A DNA stretch of 14,761 bases from Desulfobacteraceae bacterium (GTDB taxonomy: Bacteria > Desulfobacterota > Desulfobacteria > Desulfobacterales > BuS5): positions 1 through 14,761 of the forward strand of contig DAOWMW010000006.1 of NCBI GenBank assembly GCA_030642865.1, given 5' to 3'. The translations under genes were made by a program, and so were the position numbers. Below, one piece after another: positions 4,209 through 9,951 of this stretch. The notes beneath the pieces were generated by a model that saw nothing but the letters and a program-made list of their open reading frames with translations, was not told the origin of the DNA and made no database searches. Numbering within the stretch: position 1 is the first letter of the stretch; each line of letters starts with the position of its first letter.

Positions 4209-4499
4209 TTAGTGATGGAGGTATTTACTGAGTTCACGGTAGAAATTTTGGTGTGATCCGAAAGAATAAAGATAAATAGTCGAACATTCAATCTCGTATG
4301 CTAAAAGAATAAGATTGTTTCCGCCTTTATATTTATAAACCCTTATTCCTTGCAAATCTCCTTTTTTTATATCACCAATATCAGGATTTGTCATAATAGT
4401 TTTGATAGCTTCATCCAGTTTTTTAGTTTGGTTTTTTTTCAGTTTCCTTTTTTGTCTGGCAAAAGTCGGAGATTGAATAATTTCGGAAATGTCGTCCAT
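4209..4499 (-). CDS. ParE/RelE-superfamily toxin of a type II toxin-antitoxin pair
   Basis: A basic 96-residue protein with the RelE/ParE fold pattern. A Lys-rich N-terminal helical part (residues 13-38: FARQKRKLKKNQTKKLDEAI) is followed by short beta strands containing GDLQGIRVYKYKGGNNLILLAY. The end, YLYSFGSHQNFYRELSKYL, is the characteristic SFGSHxNFY segment of ParE-like toxins. It starts four bases after the antitoxin stop codon. Its GGAG ribosome site lies inside the end of the antitoxin gene, so the two are translationally linked. Superfamily members either cleave mRNA at the ribosome or poison gyrase, and the sequence alone does not tell which. It lies beside a transposase remnant, in keeping with horizontal acquisition. 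Confidence 0.8.
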   Translation of the reverse strand: MDDISEIIQSPTFARQKRKLKKNQTKKLDEAIKTIMTNPDIGDIKKGDLQGIRVYKYKGGNNLILLAYEIECSTIYLYSFGSHQNFYRELSKYLHH

Positions 4500-4502
4500 A
4501 TT

Positions 4503-4724
4503 TTATTCTCCAAAAACATATGGAGTCCCTTGTCCAGATTTTATTTCTTCTTTTCCGATTAAAATGCCTTGTATAAAGGGAAAGGGTAATTCGGGATTTT
4601 CTTCAATTATTTGCCCGATTTTTGCCCAGTACTCAATTTGACCTGCTACTGATCGTTTGAATACCTTGGATTGTACTTTTGCTTTCGCAACGAGAGCATC
4701 AGATATTTTGACAGCGGTTGGCAT
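4503..4724 (-). CDS. ParD-like antitoxin
   Basis: A 73-residue protein resembling ParD-like antitoxins that pair with ParE-like toxins. The N-terminal part (VKISDALVAKAKVQSKVFKR) fits a ribbon-helix-helix DNA-binding domain. It is followed by SVAGQIEYWAKIGQIIEENP, a hallmark of this antitoxin group. The C-terminal tail would wrap the toxin. I chose the ATG at 4724 because AAAGGAG lies five bases upstream. A longer in-frame reading from 4796 adds 24 residues of unrelated, Cys- and Lys-containing sequence running through the promoter region and is rejected. Such antitoxins normally bind and repress their own promoter. It is the first gene of a two-gene operon with the toxin. Confidence 0.8.
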   Translation of the reverse strand: MPTAVKISDALVAKAKVQSKVFKRSVAGQIEYWAKIGQIIEENPELPFPFIQGILIGKEEIKSGQGTPYVFGE

Positions 4725-4766
4725 ATTGTCTCCTTTCTTTTGTATTTTTGTTTTATTTTGACACGT

Positions 4767-4796
4767 AATACAACCTATTGCAACTAAATATGTCAA
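4767..4796 (-). promoter_or_regulatory. Probable promoter of the toxin-antitoxin operon
   Basis: On the minus strand TTGACA (4796-4791) is followed after 18 bp by TGTATT (4772-4767), a full -35 and a weak -10. TGACA and TGTCA flank the interval as a short inverted pair (4795-4791 and 4763-4759) that could belong to an antitoxin operator. This is weak evidence beyond the -35 match. Confidence 0.35.
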
Positions 4797-5162: not shown

Positions 5163-7178
5163 ATGAGAATTGTCCTTGTTTTTCCCCCTTTTTACCTGGA
5201 TTCCATGTATAATCTGCCCCCTTTGGGACTGATTAACATTGCCACCATGGCCAAAAAATCGAACCGTGATATAATCATCCATGATTTTGCCCTGGCTATA
5301 AGAAATAAAACAATAAAAATGAGCAGTACTATTTATGATGATTGTGCAAAAATAGTCCTTGGAGAGAATCCTGATCTTGTGGGGTTTTCTGCACAGTGCA
5401 CAACCTATCCCTGTGTAATAAGAATTGCCGAAAAGATAAAAAAAGAAAAACCCGGGATAAAAATAATTGTTGGTGGACACAATGCCTCCTTTGTTGCCAA
5501 AGAGACCCTGTCCAGCTTCCCTTTTATAGATGCGGTGGTAAAAGGGGAGGGTGAAATAACATTTCAGGAGCTGGTAACAGCTTATGAAAACGGATTGGAC
5601 GAAGCAGGTGTGGCAGGGGTTACATACATGTCCCATGGCAAAATCATACAGAATAAAGATCGAAAATTAATGGAAGTGCTTGATGATCTTCCCATGGCGG
5701 ATTATAGCTTTGTTCGGCCTTTTTCAGAATATAGTGAGCTGTGCGGGCTCCCCAGGAGTATTGCAATTCTTGAAGTTGGACGGGGGTGTCCCCACAGGTG
5801 TATTTACTGTTCCGAATCTGTAATGTGGCAGCAGAAGACAAGGACCTTCAGTGTTAATCGTCTGGTAAAAGAGATGGGGCATCTCCATGAAAATTATAAT
5901 GCCCAGTGTTTTTTGCTGGCCTATGATCAATTTACAGCTAAAAAAAAATTTGTTGAAGATTTTTGTACTTTGGTGATAAAAGAAAAACTGAATCATCTCC
6001 CATGGTACTGTATTTCCAGGCTCGATACTGTTGATTCCCCTCTTTTACGCAGAATGCGTGAAGCAGGGTGTGAATCAATGTGCTATGGAATAGATTCAGG
6101 GTCAAAAAAAACTTTGGCTTTTATTCGGAAAAAGATTGATGAAGATATCCTTTATGAGCGTGTAAAGGAGACCACAAAGCAGGGTATTGTCCCCACCTTA
6201 AGTTTTATTGTGGGCTTTCCCAATGAAGAAAAAGAAGATATCGATGCCACAATGCTCCTTGCTTTAAGAACAGGGGTTCAGGGGAACAGTAATCCCCTGG
6301 TACAAATGCCCACAGTCCTTCCAGGGACAGATCTCCATAAACTTTACAAGGATAAACTTGTACGCAGGGTTGATACCTACTTTTCCCTGGGGCTTGAATT
6401 TGATAATGGGATCCGCATGGCTTTAGACGATAAAATGATAAATTCAGATCCGTCTCTTTTCAGCAGTTTTTATAATCTTGCCTGCCCCGGGCGCTGTCTT
6501 GAAGAACTTAATATTATAGCGAGCTATTTCCCCTTGATTATTAATCTGTACCCCAAGTCTTTTTTGTTACTTACAATTGCGTTAAAAGAGTCTGCAAGTG
6601 ATCTTTTCATCAATTTTTTTAACTGGATGGGGCGTAACCATTTACAGGGGAGACCCCGCCTGACCCATGGAGATTGCTTTAGAAATTTTTCAGAATTTGC
6701 GGATCAGACTTTTAAGGGGAGCGGTGTAGAAAAATGGAGCCATTTTCAGGAAATGCTAAAGTATGAAACAGTCTCCCTTAAGGCGGGCAAGTTTTCCCAG
6801 ACAAAACAACCCTCCCATACAGATTTTATCTTTTCAAAGGATACAATGCCCATGTTGAGGGAAAATGTAATCGTATCAGATTTTGACCATAATATTCGGG
6901 AGATAATTGAAGATTTAAATATGGGCATATTTAATAATCAATATGATGCTGAATCTGTATCCCTTGTTTTTCGGTTTGAAGATAATGAACTTGAAGTGAC
7001 TGAAATCAACGATTTTGGGAAAGATTTTCTTGGTTTGTGTGATGGGTCTTCCAGATTAAAAGAGATTGTTTCTGTGCTTTATCCTGTTTACGGCTCGGAT
7101 ATGGAGAGGAATGTTTTTGTTAAAGAGTGTGAGGAGGCCATGACAGGTTTGTCTGATTTGAGATTACTTCAGGTGTAA
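5163..7178 (+). CDS. B12-binding-type radical SAM protein with C-terminal PqqD-like domain; candidate RiPP maturase
   Basis: A 671-residue protein of at least three parts. Residues 1-160 fit a cobalamin-binding domain: PPLGL (19-23), IIVGGHNAS (101-109) and VKGEGE (126-131) are typical of class B radical SAM enzymes, and as usual there the DxHxxG cobalamin motif is absent. The radical SAM core follows, with C209-P-H-R-C213-I-Y-C216 binding the [4Fe-4S]/SAM site and FIVGFPNE (348-355). Residues 430-550 are unassigned. The last 60 residues (about 612-671) read FGKDFLGLCDGSSRLKEIVS and end LSDLRLLQV. This matches the helix pattern of PqqD-like domains, the RiPP recognition element that grips a precursor leader. 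Enzymes of this class often methylate unactivated carbons, but the reaction here is unknown. The ATG at 5163 has only a weak upstream GGGA. A 51-codon repeat-peptide gene follows 92 bp later on the same strand. Confidence 0.88.
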   Translation: MRIVLVFPPFYLDSMYNLPPLGLINIATMAKKSNRDIIIHDFALAIRNKTIKMSSTIYDDCAKIVLGENPDLVGFSAQCTTYPCVIRIAEKIKKEKPGIKIIVGGHNASFVAKETLSSFPFIDAVVKGEGEITFQELVTAYENGLDEAGVAGVTYMSHGKIIQNKDRKLMEVLDDLPMADYSFVRPFSEYSELCGLPRSIAILEVGRGCPHRCIYCSESVMWQQKTRTFSVNRLVKEMGHLHENYNAQCFLLAYDQFTAKKKFVEDFCTLVIKEKLNHLPWYCISRLDTVDSPLLRRMREAGCESMCYGIDSGSKKTLAFIRKKIDEDILYERVKETTKQGIVPTLSFIVGFPNEEKEDIDATMLLALRTGVQGNSNPLVQMPTVLPGTDLHKLYKDKLVRRVDTYFSLGLEFDNGIRMALDDKMINSDPSLFSSFYNLACPGRCLEELNIIASYFPLIINLYPKSFLLLTIALKESASDLFINFFNWMGRNHLQGRPRLTHGDCFRNFSEFADQTFKGSGVEKWSHFQEMLKYETVSLKAGKFSQTKQPSHTDFIFSKDTMPMLRENVIVSDFDHNIREIIEDLNMGIFNNQYDAESVSLVFRFEDNELEVTEINDFGKDFLGLCDGSSRLKEIVSVLYPVYGSDMERNVFVKECEEAMTGLSDLRLLQV

Positions 7179-7199
7179 TTTTAACTCTGGTTTCTTTTG

Positions 7200-7239
7200 G
7201 CCGTTAAATCCCCGGATTTTATACTGGTGATTTAATGGC
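7200..7239 (+). other. Hairpin between radical SAM gene and precursor gene
   Basis: GCCGTTAAATC (7200-7210) pairs with GATTTAATGGC (7229-7239) over 11 bp with one G-U pair and an 18-nt loop. No U-run follows, so it is not an obvious intrinsic terminator. It could be a processing or stability element that lets the peptide message accumulate above the enzyme message. That role is inference. Confidence 0.5.
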
Positions 7240-7270
7240 TTAAAATCATAGCAAAAAAGGAGGTGAAAAA

Positions 7271-7426
7271 ATGCTTAAGACAAAAAAAGTTGAAAAAAAA
7301 GTTTCTTCAGCTGCTAGTTGCCATGCTCCATCATGCCATGCCCCTGCATGTCATGCTCCAGCGTGTCATTCGCCAGCGTGCCATTCACCGGCGTGCCATG
7401 CTCCATCATGCCATTCACCAGCGTAA
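7271..7426 (+). CDS. Candidate RiPP precursor peptide with seven CH[A/S]P[A/S] repeats
   Basis: A 51-residue peptide preceded by an excellent ribosome site, AGGAGGTGA (7258-7266), directly before the ATG. The leader MLKTKKVEKKVSSAAS is Lys-rich and lacks Cys and His. The core is seven uninterrupted pentapeptides (residues 17-51): CHAPS, CHAPA, CHAPA, CHSPA, CHSPA, CHAPS, CHSPA. Cys, His and Pro are invariant, and the other two positions are only Ala or Ser. The 15-bp units differ at several synonymous sites (TGC/TGT, GCT/GCC, CCA/CCT/CCG), which argues that the protein pattern is selected. No signal peptide, membrane segment or CxxCH haem motif occurs. It sits between two radical SAM enzymes, one with a PqqD-like domain, so it is most likely their substrate. 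Crosslinked, methylated or metal-binding products are all possible. I vaguely recall NCBIfam names CbpA/CbpB for a similar peptide/enzyme pair but cannot confirm the match. Confidence 0.85.
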   Translation: MLKTKKVEKKVSSAASCHAPSCHAPACHAPACHSPACHSPACHAPSCHSPA

Positions 7427-7445
7427 CATTATGATTTTTTTCGAT

Positions 7446-7503
7446 CGTAGGGGCGACCCTCGTGGTCGCCCTGATTTGGGCAACCACAAGGGTTGCCCCT
7501 GCG
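7446..7503. terminator. Double-hairpin palindrome between convergent precursor and radical SAM genes
   Basis: Two perfect 8-bp hairpins stand side by side: GGGCGACC-CTCGT-GGTCGCCC (7451-7471) and GGGCAACC-ACAAG-GGTTGCCC (7478-7498). The whole 58-bp block is also self-complementary end to end if G-U pairs are allowed (CGTAGGGGC with GCCCCTGCG). It starts 19 bp after the peptide stop and ends 2 bp before the opposing gene's stop codon, so it could terminate transcripts from both sides. No long U-run follows. The first hairpin resembles 4887-4913, so it is also a dispersed repeat. Confidence 0.55.
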
Positions 7504-7505
7504 TG

Positions 7506-8531
7506 TTACGAAATTTCCTCTTTTAACATGCAGCAGGCGATTTTGTATTCAGGAGTTCCGTCTTTTTTATAGGCCAGGTTTTCCGGTTGAATAAGCCTGT
7601 TCATAACGCATCCTTCGGGTATGTTTAACCCGAAAAGATGTTTTTCGTTTATATTACCGGTTTGCACCAGGGAATTTCTTTTTATGGCCATACTATGCAT
7701 GGGAAAATCTTCACACAAGGGGCATCTGTAAACTCGGCCATTGGGAAATACAAAATAATTCTCCGCAACATTTCCTGCACATTCAAAGGTCTCCCCTTCG
7801 TTTAAATAGACCTTTGGGTAGGTTACGGATATCCCGCTGGATGCAATATTTTTGGCTGTTTCCGGTATTATGTCAAGCCATCTGGATTTTTGAACCTGGA
7901 GGATCTTTTCCCCTGTTTTTGTATTCTCTTTTGCGGACTCCCCCCTTATACCGAGGACCTGAATAAAAAATCTGTTAATCCCTAAATCATTTAAAAGGGG
8001 ACCCATCTTTTCAAGCTCATCTATGTTCAGACTGCTCACTGTATATATAAGACTTGTGCAGAATCCCTTTTTAACCGCTTTTTTTATCCCTTTTATACAG
8101 TTGTCATAACACCCTTTTCCCCGGATCATATCGTTGGTCTCTTTTGAAGCACCGTCCAGGCTGAAACTTAGATAATCCAGGGTGTCGGGGGATGTTTTTG
8201 CGAGAAAATCATTAAACAGATATCCGTTGGTATCCACGGTTACAGAATTATACCCAAGAGCTTTGGCAGTTTCCACAGCCTTTGCAAGATCAGGATGGAG
8301 GGTGGGCTCTCCCCCCAGAAAAATAATATTTTGTTTTTTTTCTTTTGATGAAAAAAGTTGCAGCCATGATTTTATGGTTGCAAAGGAGAGGGTCTTTGTT
8401 CCGTGCTGCTTTTTGTTGATATAGCAATGGGTACAACTTAAATTGCATTGGGTGAGAATATGAAAAAAAAGATTAACAGAATCTTTTGAGAATGAGACCG
8501 TATTTTTTTTTATTTTTTTTGCAGAATTCAT
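7506..8531 (-). CDS. Radical SAM protein with C-terminal SPASM-like Cys-rich region; candidate peptide-modifying enzyme
   Basis: A 341-residue protein. The radical SAM motif is C29-N-L-S-C33-T-H-C36-Y, followed by FLGGEPTLHP (71-80), VDTNGY (99-104) and SFSLDG (122-127), all typical of the peptide- and protein-modifying branch. The C-terminal part holds Cys251, Cys270, Cys273, Cys308, Cys333 and Cys334, with FPNGRVYRCPLCED in the middle. This is the layout of a SPASM/twitch-like region that would hold extra Fe-S clusters, as in sactipeptide and quinohemoprotein maturases. I chose the ATG at 8531 because GAGGTGGGAG lies just before it. A start at 8606 would add 25 unrelated residues overlapping purF. 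It is 13 bp downstream of purF and so the last gene of that operon, yet it faces the repeat-peptide gene, which is its likely substrate. Confidence 0.88.
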   Translation of the reverse strand: MNSAKKIKKNTVSFSKDSVNLFFHILTQCNLSCTHCYINKKQHGTKTLSFATIKSWLQLFSSKEKKQNIIFLGGEPTLHPDLAKAVETAKALGYNSVTVDTNGYLFNDFLAKTSPDTLDYLSFSLDGASKETNDMIRGKGCYDNCIKGIKKAVKKGFCTSLIYTVSSLNIDELEKMGPLLNDLGINRFFIQVLGIRGESAKENTKTGEKILQVQKSRWLDIIPETAKNIASSGISVTYPKVYLNEGETFECAGNVAENYFVFPNGRVYRCPLCEDFPMHSMAIKRNSLVQTGNINEKHLFGLNIPEGCVMNRLIQPENLAYKKDGTPEYKIACCMLKEEIS

Positions 8532-8544
8532 ACTCTCCCACCTC

Positions 8545-9951
8545 TTATACTGCGAGACAATCTTTTGATAATTCTTTGCCAAAATCCACAGGATAGCATC
8601 CATCAAAGCATGCTTTGCAGAAATTGTTTTCAGGGTTTTCTACTCCTGTAGATTTGAGGAGTCCTTCGAGGCTTAAATAATGGAGGGAGTCCAGGTTAAG
8701 ATAATTTTGCAGTTCTTTTGTCGACATATTCGCAGCGATCAAGTCTCCTTTTATGGAGAAATCGATTCCATAGTGACATGGAAAACGGTGCGCCGGACCG
8801 GCAACGCGTAAATGGATCTTGCTTACACCCAGCTCCCGCAGCGCTTTTACTCTGGTTTTGACTGTTGTGCCCCTGATCACCGAGTCTTCTATTATTATGA
8901 TCTCCTTACCTTTTAAGAGGCTGCTTATGGGATTTAATTTTACCCTGACTCCAAAATCGCGCATACTCTGGGTCGGCTGAATAAAGGTTCTCCCCACATA
9001 ATGATTCCGTATCATTGCCATTTCAAAAGGAATTCCGGATTCTTCGGAATAGCCCAAAGCAGCATAGGTACCTGAATCAGGAAAGGGCATGACAAGATCA
9101 GCATCCACAGGAGCCTCTTTGGCAAGGCATTTCCCATGGGCTTTTCTTATCTGATAAACATTTTTTTCAAATAATATACTGTCAGGCCTGGCAAAATATA
9201 TGAACTCAAATATACAAAATGTCTGTTTGATTTTGGGAAAGGGTTTTATGCTCTTTAAGCCATCCCTGTTGATAATAAGTATTTCCCCGGGATCAAGTTC
9301 TCTTATAAAATCTGCCTGAACAAGATCCAGGGCACATGATTCCGACGCAAGGACATAACTCCCGTTTAATTTCCCCAGGCATAAGGGCCTGAAACCGTTT
9401 GGATCTTTTATACCAAAAATTTCTCCCCTGGATGTTAACCCCACAAACGCAAATGCTCCCTTGAGCTTTGCCACTGCATTGACAATGGCCTGCTCAAAGC
9501 CGAATTTCAGGTTCTTAACAAAAAGGTGGAGGAAAATTTCACTGTCCATGGTGGTTTGAAAGATGGAGCCTGCTTCTTCCAGTTCGTTTTTTAATATATA
9601 GGCATTTACCAGATTTCCATTATGGGCTATGGCATAGGATTTTTTTCTGTGCCGGATGACAAAAGGCTGGGCATTTGCAATTACAGAACTTCCTGTGGTT
9701 GAATACCTTACATGCCCTATGGCATGCTCTCCTTTTAACTGCTTAAGGTGCTTTTTGTCAAAAACGTCCGATACCAGACCCATTTCCTTGTGAACAATTA
9801 TATTATTATCCGCTGCAACAGCTATCCCCGCGCTCTCCTGCCCCCTGTGCTGAAGAGCATAGAGACCGAAATAATTCAACCTGGCAGCATCAGAATGTTT
9901 GGAAATTCCGAATATTCCACATTCTTCCCGGGGTTTATTATTATAAATCAT
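8545..9951 (-). CDS. purF: Amidophosphoribosyltransferase (glutamine PRPP amidotransferase), Fe-S type
   Basis: Catalyses the first committed step of purine synthesis, glutamine plus PRPP to 5-phosphoribosylamine. The protein has 468 residues. The N-terminal glutaminase nucleophile is Cys11 in MIYNNKPREECGIFGI, so the first ten residues are a propeptide that must be removed, as in Bacillus subtilis PurF. The PRPP-binding motif IIIIEDSVIRGTT is at 351-363. Cys246, Cys392, Cys445 and Cys448 sit where the B. subtilis-type enzyme binds its [4Fe-4S] cluster, which fits an anaerobic host. It begins four bases after the carB stop codon. The AGGAG within carB is 16 bases upstream of the ATG, an unusually long distance, so translational coupling to carB is likely. 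The next gene follows after 13 bp. Confidence 0.96.
   Translation of the reverse strand: MIYNNKPREECGIFGISKHSDAARLNYFGLYALQHRGQESAGIAVAADNNIIVHKEMGLVSDVFDKKHLKQLKGEHAIGHVRYSTTGSSVIANAQPFVIRHRKKSYAIAHNGNLVNAYILKNELEEAGSIFQTTMDSEIFLHLFVKNLKFGFEQAIVNAVAKLKGAFAFVGLTSRGEIFGIKDPNGFRPLCLGKLNGSYVLASESCALDLVQADFIRELDPGEILIINRDGLKSIKPFPKIKQTFCIFEFIYFARPDSILFEKNVYQIRKAHGKCLAKEAPVDADLVMPFPDSGTYAALGYSEESGIPFEMAMIRNHYVGRTFIQPTQSMRDFGVRVKLNPISSLLKGKEIIIIEDSVIRGTTVKTRVKALRELGVSKIHLRVAGPAHRFPCHYGIDFSIKGDLIAANMSTKELQNYLNLDSLHYLSLEGLLKSTGVENPENNFCKACFDGCYPVDFGKELSKDCLAV

Follow-up and report, generated by a model that had tools for sequence, protein, structure and literature searches.

In the described ovothiol pathway, OvoA, OvoB and OvoC lead to 5-thiohistidine and ovothiol, and the route begins with the sulfoxide synthase OvoA, as set out in the available part of PMC12631010. 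The locus considered here lies in a window of 14,761 nucleotides (contig C203 of the genome G000, which is in 285 contigs and 67% complete) and pairs a B12-binding radical SAM enzyme with a short peptide of seven Cys-His units. OvoA uses O2, and the record titles of the genomes that encode the enzyme mostly name sulfate- and metal-reducing lineages. We see an even chance that the Cys-His peptide and the B12-binding enzyme constitute the first step of an oxygen-independent, peptide-based route to ovothiol-type 5-thiohistidine compounds.

The peptide gene and its partner enzyme

The sequence-only reading had proposed a real 51-codon gene with a ribosome site, a 16-residue leader and seven CH[A/S]P[A/S] units that vary synonymously, and these points are borne out, as shown in Table 1. 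GGAGGTG or a near-match also precedes the homologous peptide genes listed, the reading of the ORF returns the leader and the seven units, and a repeat search of the window finds the core unit at a spacing of 15 bases. Across the 128 CHxPx units of 19 repeat peptides (that of the window and those of 18 loci), Cys, His and Pro are invariant, and their codons vary (Cys, TGC 79 and TGT 49; His, CAT 80 and CAC 48; Pro, CCG 69, CCC 21, CCA 20 and CCT 18). The same DNA is also read by an 87-aa GTG frame (7263-7526), which is longer and had been dismissed as spurious in the sequence-only reading. The peptide scores below the cut-off for every curated family, with CefA as the best NCBIfam match, and two relatives are found among 5.8 billion proteins searched. 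Past the peptide stop, two GC-rich stretches at about 7449-7503 (beginning GGGGCGACC and GGGCAACCAC) look hairpin-like by eye and possibly represent a dispersed repeat; the repeat search reported no inverted pair there. Elsewhere in the window, a gene pair on the minus strand (4209-4796) encodes a ParD-like antitoxin (PF11903, 65.5 bits) and a ParE-like toxin (PF15781, 98.6 bits).

Table 1. Positions of the peptide gene, the B12-binding radical SAM enzyme and associated features in the window
Feature	Position	Strand	Basis or remark
B12-binding radical SAM enzyme, 671 aa, predicted peptide maturase	5163-7178	+	PF02310 66.7 bits, PF04055 69.6 bits
CxxxCxxC motif, C209/C213/C216	5787-5810	+	invariant in 14/14 aligned homologues
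C-terminal RRE-like (PqqD-fold) domain, predicted leader binder	6852-7175	+	profile match, fold model
Ribosome-binding site GGAGGTG of the peptide gene	7259-7265	+	sequence, just 5' of ATG
Peptide ORF	7271-7426	+	51 codons: MLKTKKVEKKVSSAAS + (CH[A/S]P[A/S])x7 + TAA
Leader MLKTKKVEKKVSSAAS, 16 residues	7271-7318	+	type M-x-x-x-x-x-[VI]-E
Core, seven CH[A/S]P[A/S] units	7319-7423	+	sequence; conserved relatives
Second radical SAM protein	7506-8606	-	beside purF

The stop codon of the enzyme lies 92 bases upstream of the peptide gene on the same strand. No terminator-like site is present between the two genes; two weak promoter-like matches are (7197-7225 and 7218-7246), and the region holds 10 such matches versus 6.3 in shuffles. 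Judged from the sequence, the two genes are likely to share one transcript. The CxxxCxxC motif of the enzyme is that of the radical SAM [4Fe-4S] cluster. The model of the full 671-aa enzyme (pLDDT 70, below 50 over residues 371-443) resembles OxsB, TsrM, AprD4, TokK, CysS and MgmA in structure matches, and the nearest NCBIfam model is ApyD (NF050148), at 247.6 bits versus a cut-off of 750. A separate domain is modelled for the C-terminal ~105 residues (pLDDT 92.8); its four top Foldseek hits are RRE proteins, namely TglI and leader-bound TbiB1 (prob 1.0, E 0.003-0.031), with no match at E<=0.001. Additionally, the ApyI RRE-protein model matches residues 503-668 (E 8e-4, 18.7 bits, cut-off 200), and Pfam gives no PqqD match for the enzyme. 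The sequence-only reading had noted that radical SAM enzymes with PqqD-like or SPASM-like domains modify ribosomal peptides, and it is the B12-binding enzyme that ends in a PqqD-like (RRE-like) domain.

In a first survey of the whole genomes of 146 relatives, peptide matches at E<=0.01 are observed in 16 genomes, only 3 of them at E<1e-20 (the next is at 6e-7), and the enzyme is present at E<=1e-80 in those same 3 genomes, which excludes chance for the peptide ORF. The weak matches in the 13 other genomes (L004-L017) range from E 6e-7 to 0.0099, and one of these genomes, G038, has a 55-aa open frame. Scanning public genomes yielded 115 enzyme relatives, of which the best 80 were kept; 34 of these are full-length (L021-L054) and share 49-57% identity with the enzyme, after which the next relatives follow at 32% or less. 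The locus counts rest on these 34, the other 46 being left aside; all are metagenome-assembled records by title, and the contig of L028 is apparently identical to that of G099.

A repeat peptide is present downstream of the enzyme in 18 of the 34 loci. Its distance from the enzyme match is 37-82 bases in 17 of the 18 and 353 bases in L023, and these peptides have 5-8 units; that of G045 has 9. Another 13 loci have a peptide with an in-frame UGA codon (UGA type), and 31 of the 34 have a downstream peptide of one of the two types. No peptide is found in L021, L025 and L035; the L025 contig ends 87 bases past the enzyme. In L035 (~4436-4532), the enzyme frame appears to continue straight into an ESPVRR peptide end, as if the leader and the UGA codon had been lost, and L040 (9046-9587) has both a Cys-type peptide, in which the spacing of the CHAP units is irregular, and a UGA-type peptide. 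Enzyme and peptide form a conserved pair, and the arrangement is as expected of a radical SAM RiPP system, in which a small gene for the precursor is kept next to that of the enzyme that modifies it. The sequence-only reading had named the peptide as the likely substrate of such an enzyme and had made this depend on conservation beside enzyme homologues; with 18 of the 34 loci carrying a repeat peptide, the peptide is the conserved partner of the enzyme and very likely its substrate.

The same reading had drawn in both radical SAM proteins of the window, which is not supported for the one on the minus strand. The family of that protein is large (4209 proteins at E<=0.001), its best-named relatives are from Desulfobacterales, and no curated NCBIfam model is over its cut-off among the 25 best shown. 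It does not recur near the B12-binding enzyme in the other 34 loci; the lone exception, in L047, is a weak match (26%) some 5 kb off. It was rejected as a member of the system because it is not a recurrent neighbor. The suggested comparison with CbpA and CbpB gives 52.1 bits versus a cut-off of 375 for the minus-strand protein against CbpB (TIGR04163) and no CbpA model match for the peptide; membership in CbpA/CbpB, ApyD and CefA was rejected, as all matches are below the cut-offs.

Relatives with an in-frame UGA codon

The UGA-type peptides are short, share the M-x-x-x-x-x-[VI]-E leader type with the repeat peptides, and have the UGA at the Cys position of the motif in all 13 loci. When read past the UGA, they continue as H-A-P-[ST]-[EQ]-S-P-V-R-R to a second stop, which is in frame and ten codons past the UGA in the 12 peptides counted. 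In these 12 (the L031 peptide is below the length limit), variation over the five codons that follow the UGA falls at 5/5 third, 2/5 first and 0/5 second positions. The stretch that comes next is almost invariant and folds into a 7-bp hairpin with a G-U-N loop, which lies 14 bases past the UGA and is kept in the 13 loci, save one pair in L047; a bacterial SECIS would be expected to have this form. No covariation is observed for the hairpin among the 13 loci. The single-sequence folding z-scores range from -0.4 to -4.05 in the 6 loci folded, of which only L052 is strong and the other 5 are not clearly better than shuffles; L044 prefers an alternative fold, and a search of 5 of the 13 loci returned no Rfam family match.

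The genomes of 12 of the 13 loci have a tRNA-Sec match of at least 70 bits (the exception is that of L031), and SelB is over the cut-off in 12 (the exception is that of L045). Many repeat-type genomes also have tRNA-Sec and SelB, which makes the machinery permissive, not diagnostic; in G000, SelB is over the cut-off, and the best tRNA-Sec match, at 42.9 bits, is below the gathering score. An in-frame UGA, a coding signal after it, a hairpin and Sec machinery are found together in these relatives, which are predicted to carry selenocysteine in a "UHAP" version of the motif.

In the enzyme tree, one branch with support 100/97 splits the UGA-type enzymes (L040 counted among them) from the repeat-type enzymes, which indicates that enzyme and substrate changed together. 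Most UGA peptides end VP-type just before the UGA. Each has one UH pair, and 10 of the 13 have no CH pair besides; in these 10, UH is the sole such pair, which points to residues i and i+1 as the natural partners. The natural exchange of Cys for UGA within the motif is an unusually direct pointer to the atom that matters.

Neighboring genes and the proposed route

An M19 dipeptidase is encoded in 24 of the 34 loci, downstream on the same strand in 23 and upstream in L026; 5 of the 10 loci that lack it have contigs ending within 1.5 kb. M19 dipeptidase acts on S-substituted Cys dipeptides. Convergent to the dipeptidase, 8 of the 34 loci encode a class-V PLP enzyme, for which SufS-type cysteine desulfurases are the closest group (117.8 bits versus 72.3 for EgtE). 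A Trm112-type methyltransferase gene lies directly 3' of the peptide in 12 of the 34 loci, all of the repeat type, and was not found near the 13 UGA-type loci within the available locus stretches. All three families are encoded in G000; none of their genes is adjacent to the peptide in the window, and they lie on other contigs of this fragmented genome (the PLP enzyme on C159, at 47% identity; the methyltransferase on C214, where its gene overlaps the M19 gene). One of the six recurrent neighbor families has no Pfam match.

The closest solved relatives of the methyltransferase are 5-thiohistidine and 5-selenohistidine N-methyltransferases. Searched against the PDB, it matches OvsM at 2.5e-18, OvoA at 2.8e-18 and OvoM at 1.4e-13, followed by a 60-aa Trm112-like chain (8e-8) and the next methyltransferase (1.8e-4); a 19-sequence profile places OvsM, OvoA and OvoM at 2e-33 to 8e-32 and the next methyltransferase at 2e-11. 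Additionally, EGEL- and W[IL]GG-like stretches are common to the methyltransferase and the OvoM/OvsM alignment. An OvoM-type match (TIGR04345) at E<=1e-10 is present in 34 of the 36 enzyme genomes, 8 of them over the curated cut-off; the G000 copy has 103.4 bits versus a cut-off of 170.

The methyltransferase itself is found at E<=1e-49 in 27 of the 36 genomes; in another 7, a stand-alone OvoM scores above the TIGR04345 cut-off, in open frames of 259-405 aa, such as that of L128, with 306.8 bits and PDB E values to 1e-83. None of these 7 genomes has a synthase over the cut-off, and 5 are without a synthase match at E<=0.001. Both proteins are lacking only in the genomes of L021 and L023. Of the six repeat-type loci without an adjacent methyltransferase, L024, L032, L036, L041 and L049 are from stand-alone-OvoM genomes, and the contig of L023 stops 685 bases further on. 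By eye, the stand-alone OvoM of L128-L130 is followed by a cobalt-transporter CbiM-like gene.

The N-terminal synthase of OvoA (TIGR04344) is over the cut-off in 1 of the 36 genomes, G176, which has a full OvoA by frame length; G000 reaches 42.1 bits versus a cut-off of 400, and some OvoA-synthase match at E<=0.001 is present in 29 of the 36. With an OvoM-type match in 34 of 36 genomes and no OvoA over the cut-off in 35, a B12 radical enzyme that works on Cys-His peptides would close the gap. Matches of 125-137 bits to the OvoA N-terminus occur in five UGA-type genomes (G163, G168, G169, G175 and G179), and these OvoA-N-term-like proteins could represent another route.

The idea that the methyltransferase is exclusive to enzyme genomes was rejected, as 25 of the 143 relatives that lack the enzyme at E<=1e-80 have a TIGR04345 match at E<=1e-12, a figure that comes from a different taxon sample and a different E limit than the 34 of 36 (1e-10). 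In 20 loci taken from these 25 genomes, with the other 5 genomes left out, a molybdopterin oxidoreductase gene comes after that of the methyltransferase in 17; in L150-L163 and L165-L167, the OvoM-like Trm112 methyltransferase and the oxidoreductase are tightly paired. L164 and L168 have a more distant methyltransferase and, ~1.5 kb upstream, a remote relative of the B12-binding radical SAM enzyme (27% and 23% identity), which is maybe another version of the system. A tree of 45 proteins separates the two settings with two changes, versus ~14 in shuffles. Because the methyltransferase stands beside a molybdoenzyme elsewhere, it is a less secure guide to the product than its best matches would suggest. 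The stand-alone OvoM carries more weight: TIGR04345 is over the cut-off in 3 of the 146 relatives, two of which have a 714-726-aa frame, as a full OvoA does; the third, G045, has a stand-alone OvoM and the B12-binding radical SAM enzyme.

The UGA at the Cys position and the OvoM-type methyltransferase next door suggest transfer of the chalcogen from Cys or Sec to His. The sequence-only reading had offered crosslinking, C-methylation or metal binding at the Cys-His pairs; that guess is sharpened here to chalcogen transfer, and C-methylation and metal binding become rivals. In the proposed route, the leader peptide would be held by the RRE-like domain while the enzyme bonds the sulfur of each Cys (or the selenium of Sec) to the imidazole ring of the His that follows it. 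The crosslinked Cys-His would then be released by proteolysis and the M19 dipeptidase; cleavage of the Cys C-S bond by the PLP enzyme and N-methylation of the thiohistidine by the methyltransferase would follow, in this or another order. The UGA version would yield selenohistidine, and several units per peptide would repay the cost of the leader. C-S bond formation is among the reactions reported for B12-binding radical SAM enzymes in the available part of PMC10635010. The complete scheme, in which anaerobes encode Cys-His or Sec-His peptides and convert them to ovothiol or ovoselenol by the B12-binding enzyme acting without O2, a dipeptidase, a PLP lyase and OvoM, is put forward tentatively, as a possibility on the doubtful side.

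Several of the structural matches (TsrM, TokK, CysS and MgmA) are methylases, which would suit an enzyme that places methyl groups on carbons of the core residues (His, Cys, Ala or Pro), in which case the product is the peptide and the methyltransferase N-methylates its His. The nearest curated model points the same way, as ApyD is an RRE-containing B12-binding radical SAM enzyme whose methylation target is the beta carbon of Tyr (PMC10635010, available part). However, C-methylation gives no account of why Cys is exchanged for UGA while His stays, and it leaves the recurrent M19 dipeptidase and PLP enzyme, as well as stand-alone OvoM without OvoA, unexplained; we consider it somewhat unlikely. 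The link to the methyltransferase may also be incidental, with the subfamily serving something else, such as the molybdoenzyme that it accompanies in members of the same order, and being uninformative on the peptide product, for which the molybdopterin oxidoreductase partner in 17 of the 20 loci without the enzyme speaks. This explanation has a limited chance of being right, since the methyltransferase directly follows the peptide in 12 of the 34 enzyme loci, a stand-alone OvoM over the cut-off is present instead in seven enzyme genomes, and no molybdoenzyme was found around the methyltransferase in enzyme genomes within the available stretches.

The remaining two rivals concern the peptide. 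The dense and regular spacing of Cys and His could belong to a metal- or redox-binding array that the radical enzyme merely tailors, and Sec/Cys exchange is common in redox motifs. Such an array is improbable, as the single UH pair of the UGA peptides, 10 of 13 of which have no CH pair, indicates that an array is not needed, and it would have no need for a dipeptidase or a thiohistidine methyltransferase. Were the UGA an ordinary stop, the conserved stretch after it would be an untranslated RNA element and the short peptides another substrate class; the hairpin without covariation, the 5 loci without an Rfam match and the VP-type ending right before the UGA in most peptides are consistent with this. 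Nevertheless, synonymous variation after the UGA spells H-A-P-[ST], the motif as in the Cys paralogues, the closing stop follows in frame ten codons on in the 12 counted, and Sec machinery is present. An ordinary stop was set aside on the coding signal and is retained as a rival of small probability.

Comparison with known systems

Chalcogen transfer to His would, to our knowledge, be new chemistry for B12-binding radical SAM enzymes on peptides. If true, it would explain a peptide of seven near-identical units, the selenium of a small molecule would come from genetically encoded selenocysteine, and there would be a new route to chalcogen-histidine antioxidants. No such peptide-based ovothiol or selenohistidine system appears in the literature searched, which was available in part, and overlap with work on ovoselenol and thio(seleno)oxazole is possible.

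The aminopyruvatide enzyme ApyD has B12-binding, radical SAM and RRE parts and acts on a ribosomal peptide (PMC10635010, available part), as is predicted for the window enzyme with its RRE-like domain. It differs in that ApyD methylates the C-beta of Tyr, the window enzyme is far below the 750-bit cut-off, and no P450 or MNIO enzyme is present among the six recurrent neighbor families scanned here. The "Cys-every-fifth RiPP peptide" CefA (NF038108), for which no paper naming it was found in the literature searched, shares the Cys at every fifth position; its model matches 20 of 23 peptides at E<=1 (best E 2e-4), whereas the window peptide reaches 18.8 bits versus a cut-off of 30. In the ovoselenol pathway, the 5-selenohistidine N-methyltransferase OvsM is the closest solved relative of the methyltransferase. 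The C-Se bond of that pathway is reportedly formed on histidine by a metalloenzyme, whereas the selenium here would derive from selenocysteine in the peptide.

In 3-thiaglutamate and pearlin biosynthesis, a small amino-acid-derived product is likewise made on a peptide scaffold, TglA, according to the available part of PMC9016710, and the RRE-like domain has TglI as one of its fold matches; however, Cys is added there to the scaffold post-translationally, whereas the Cys-His units here are encoded. The thio(seleno)oxazole RiPPs, known here by a title cited in PMC13188914, are similar in combining a radical SAM RiPP route with selenium. The ovothiol pathway (OvoA, OvoB, OvoC/OvoM) shares with the proposed route the transfer of Cys sulfur onto His, a PLP lyase and a methyltransferase, as far as the available part of PMC12631010 describes it. 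It differs from the present system, in which an OvoA synthase is over the cut-off in 1 of the 36 genomes, the Cys and His would belong to a ribosomal peptide, the PLP enzyme is of class V, and a dipeptidase is added.
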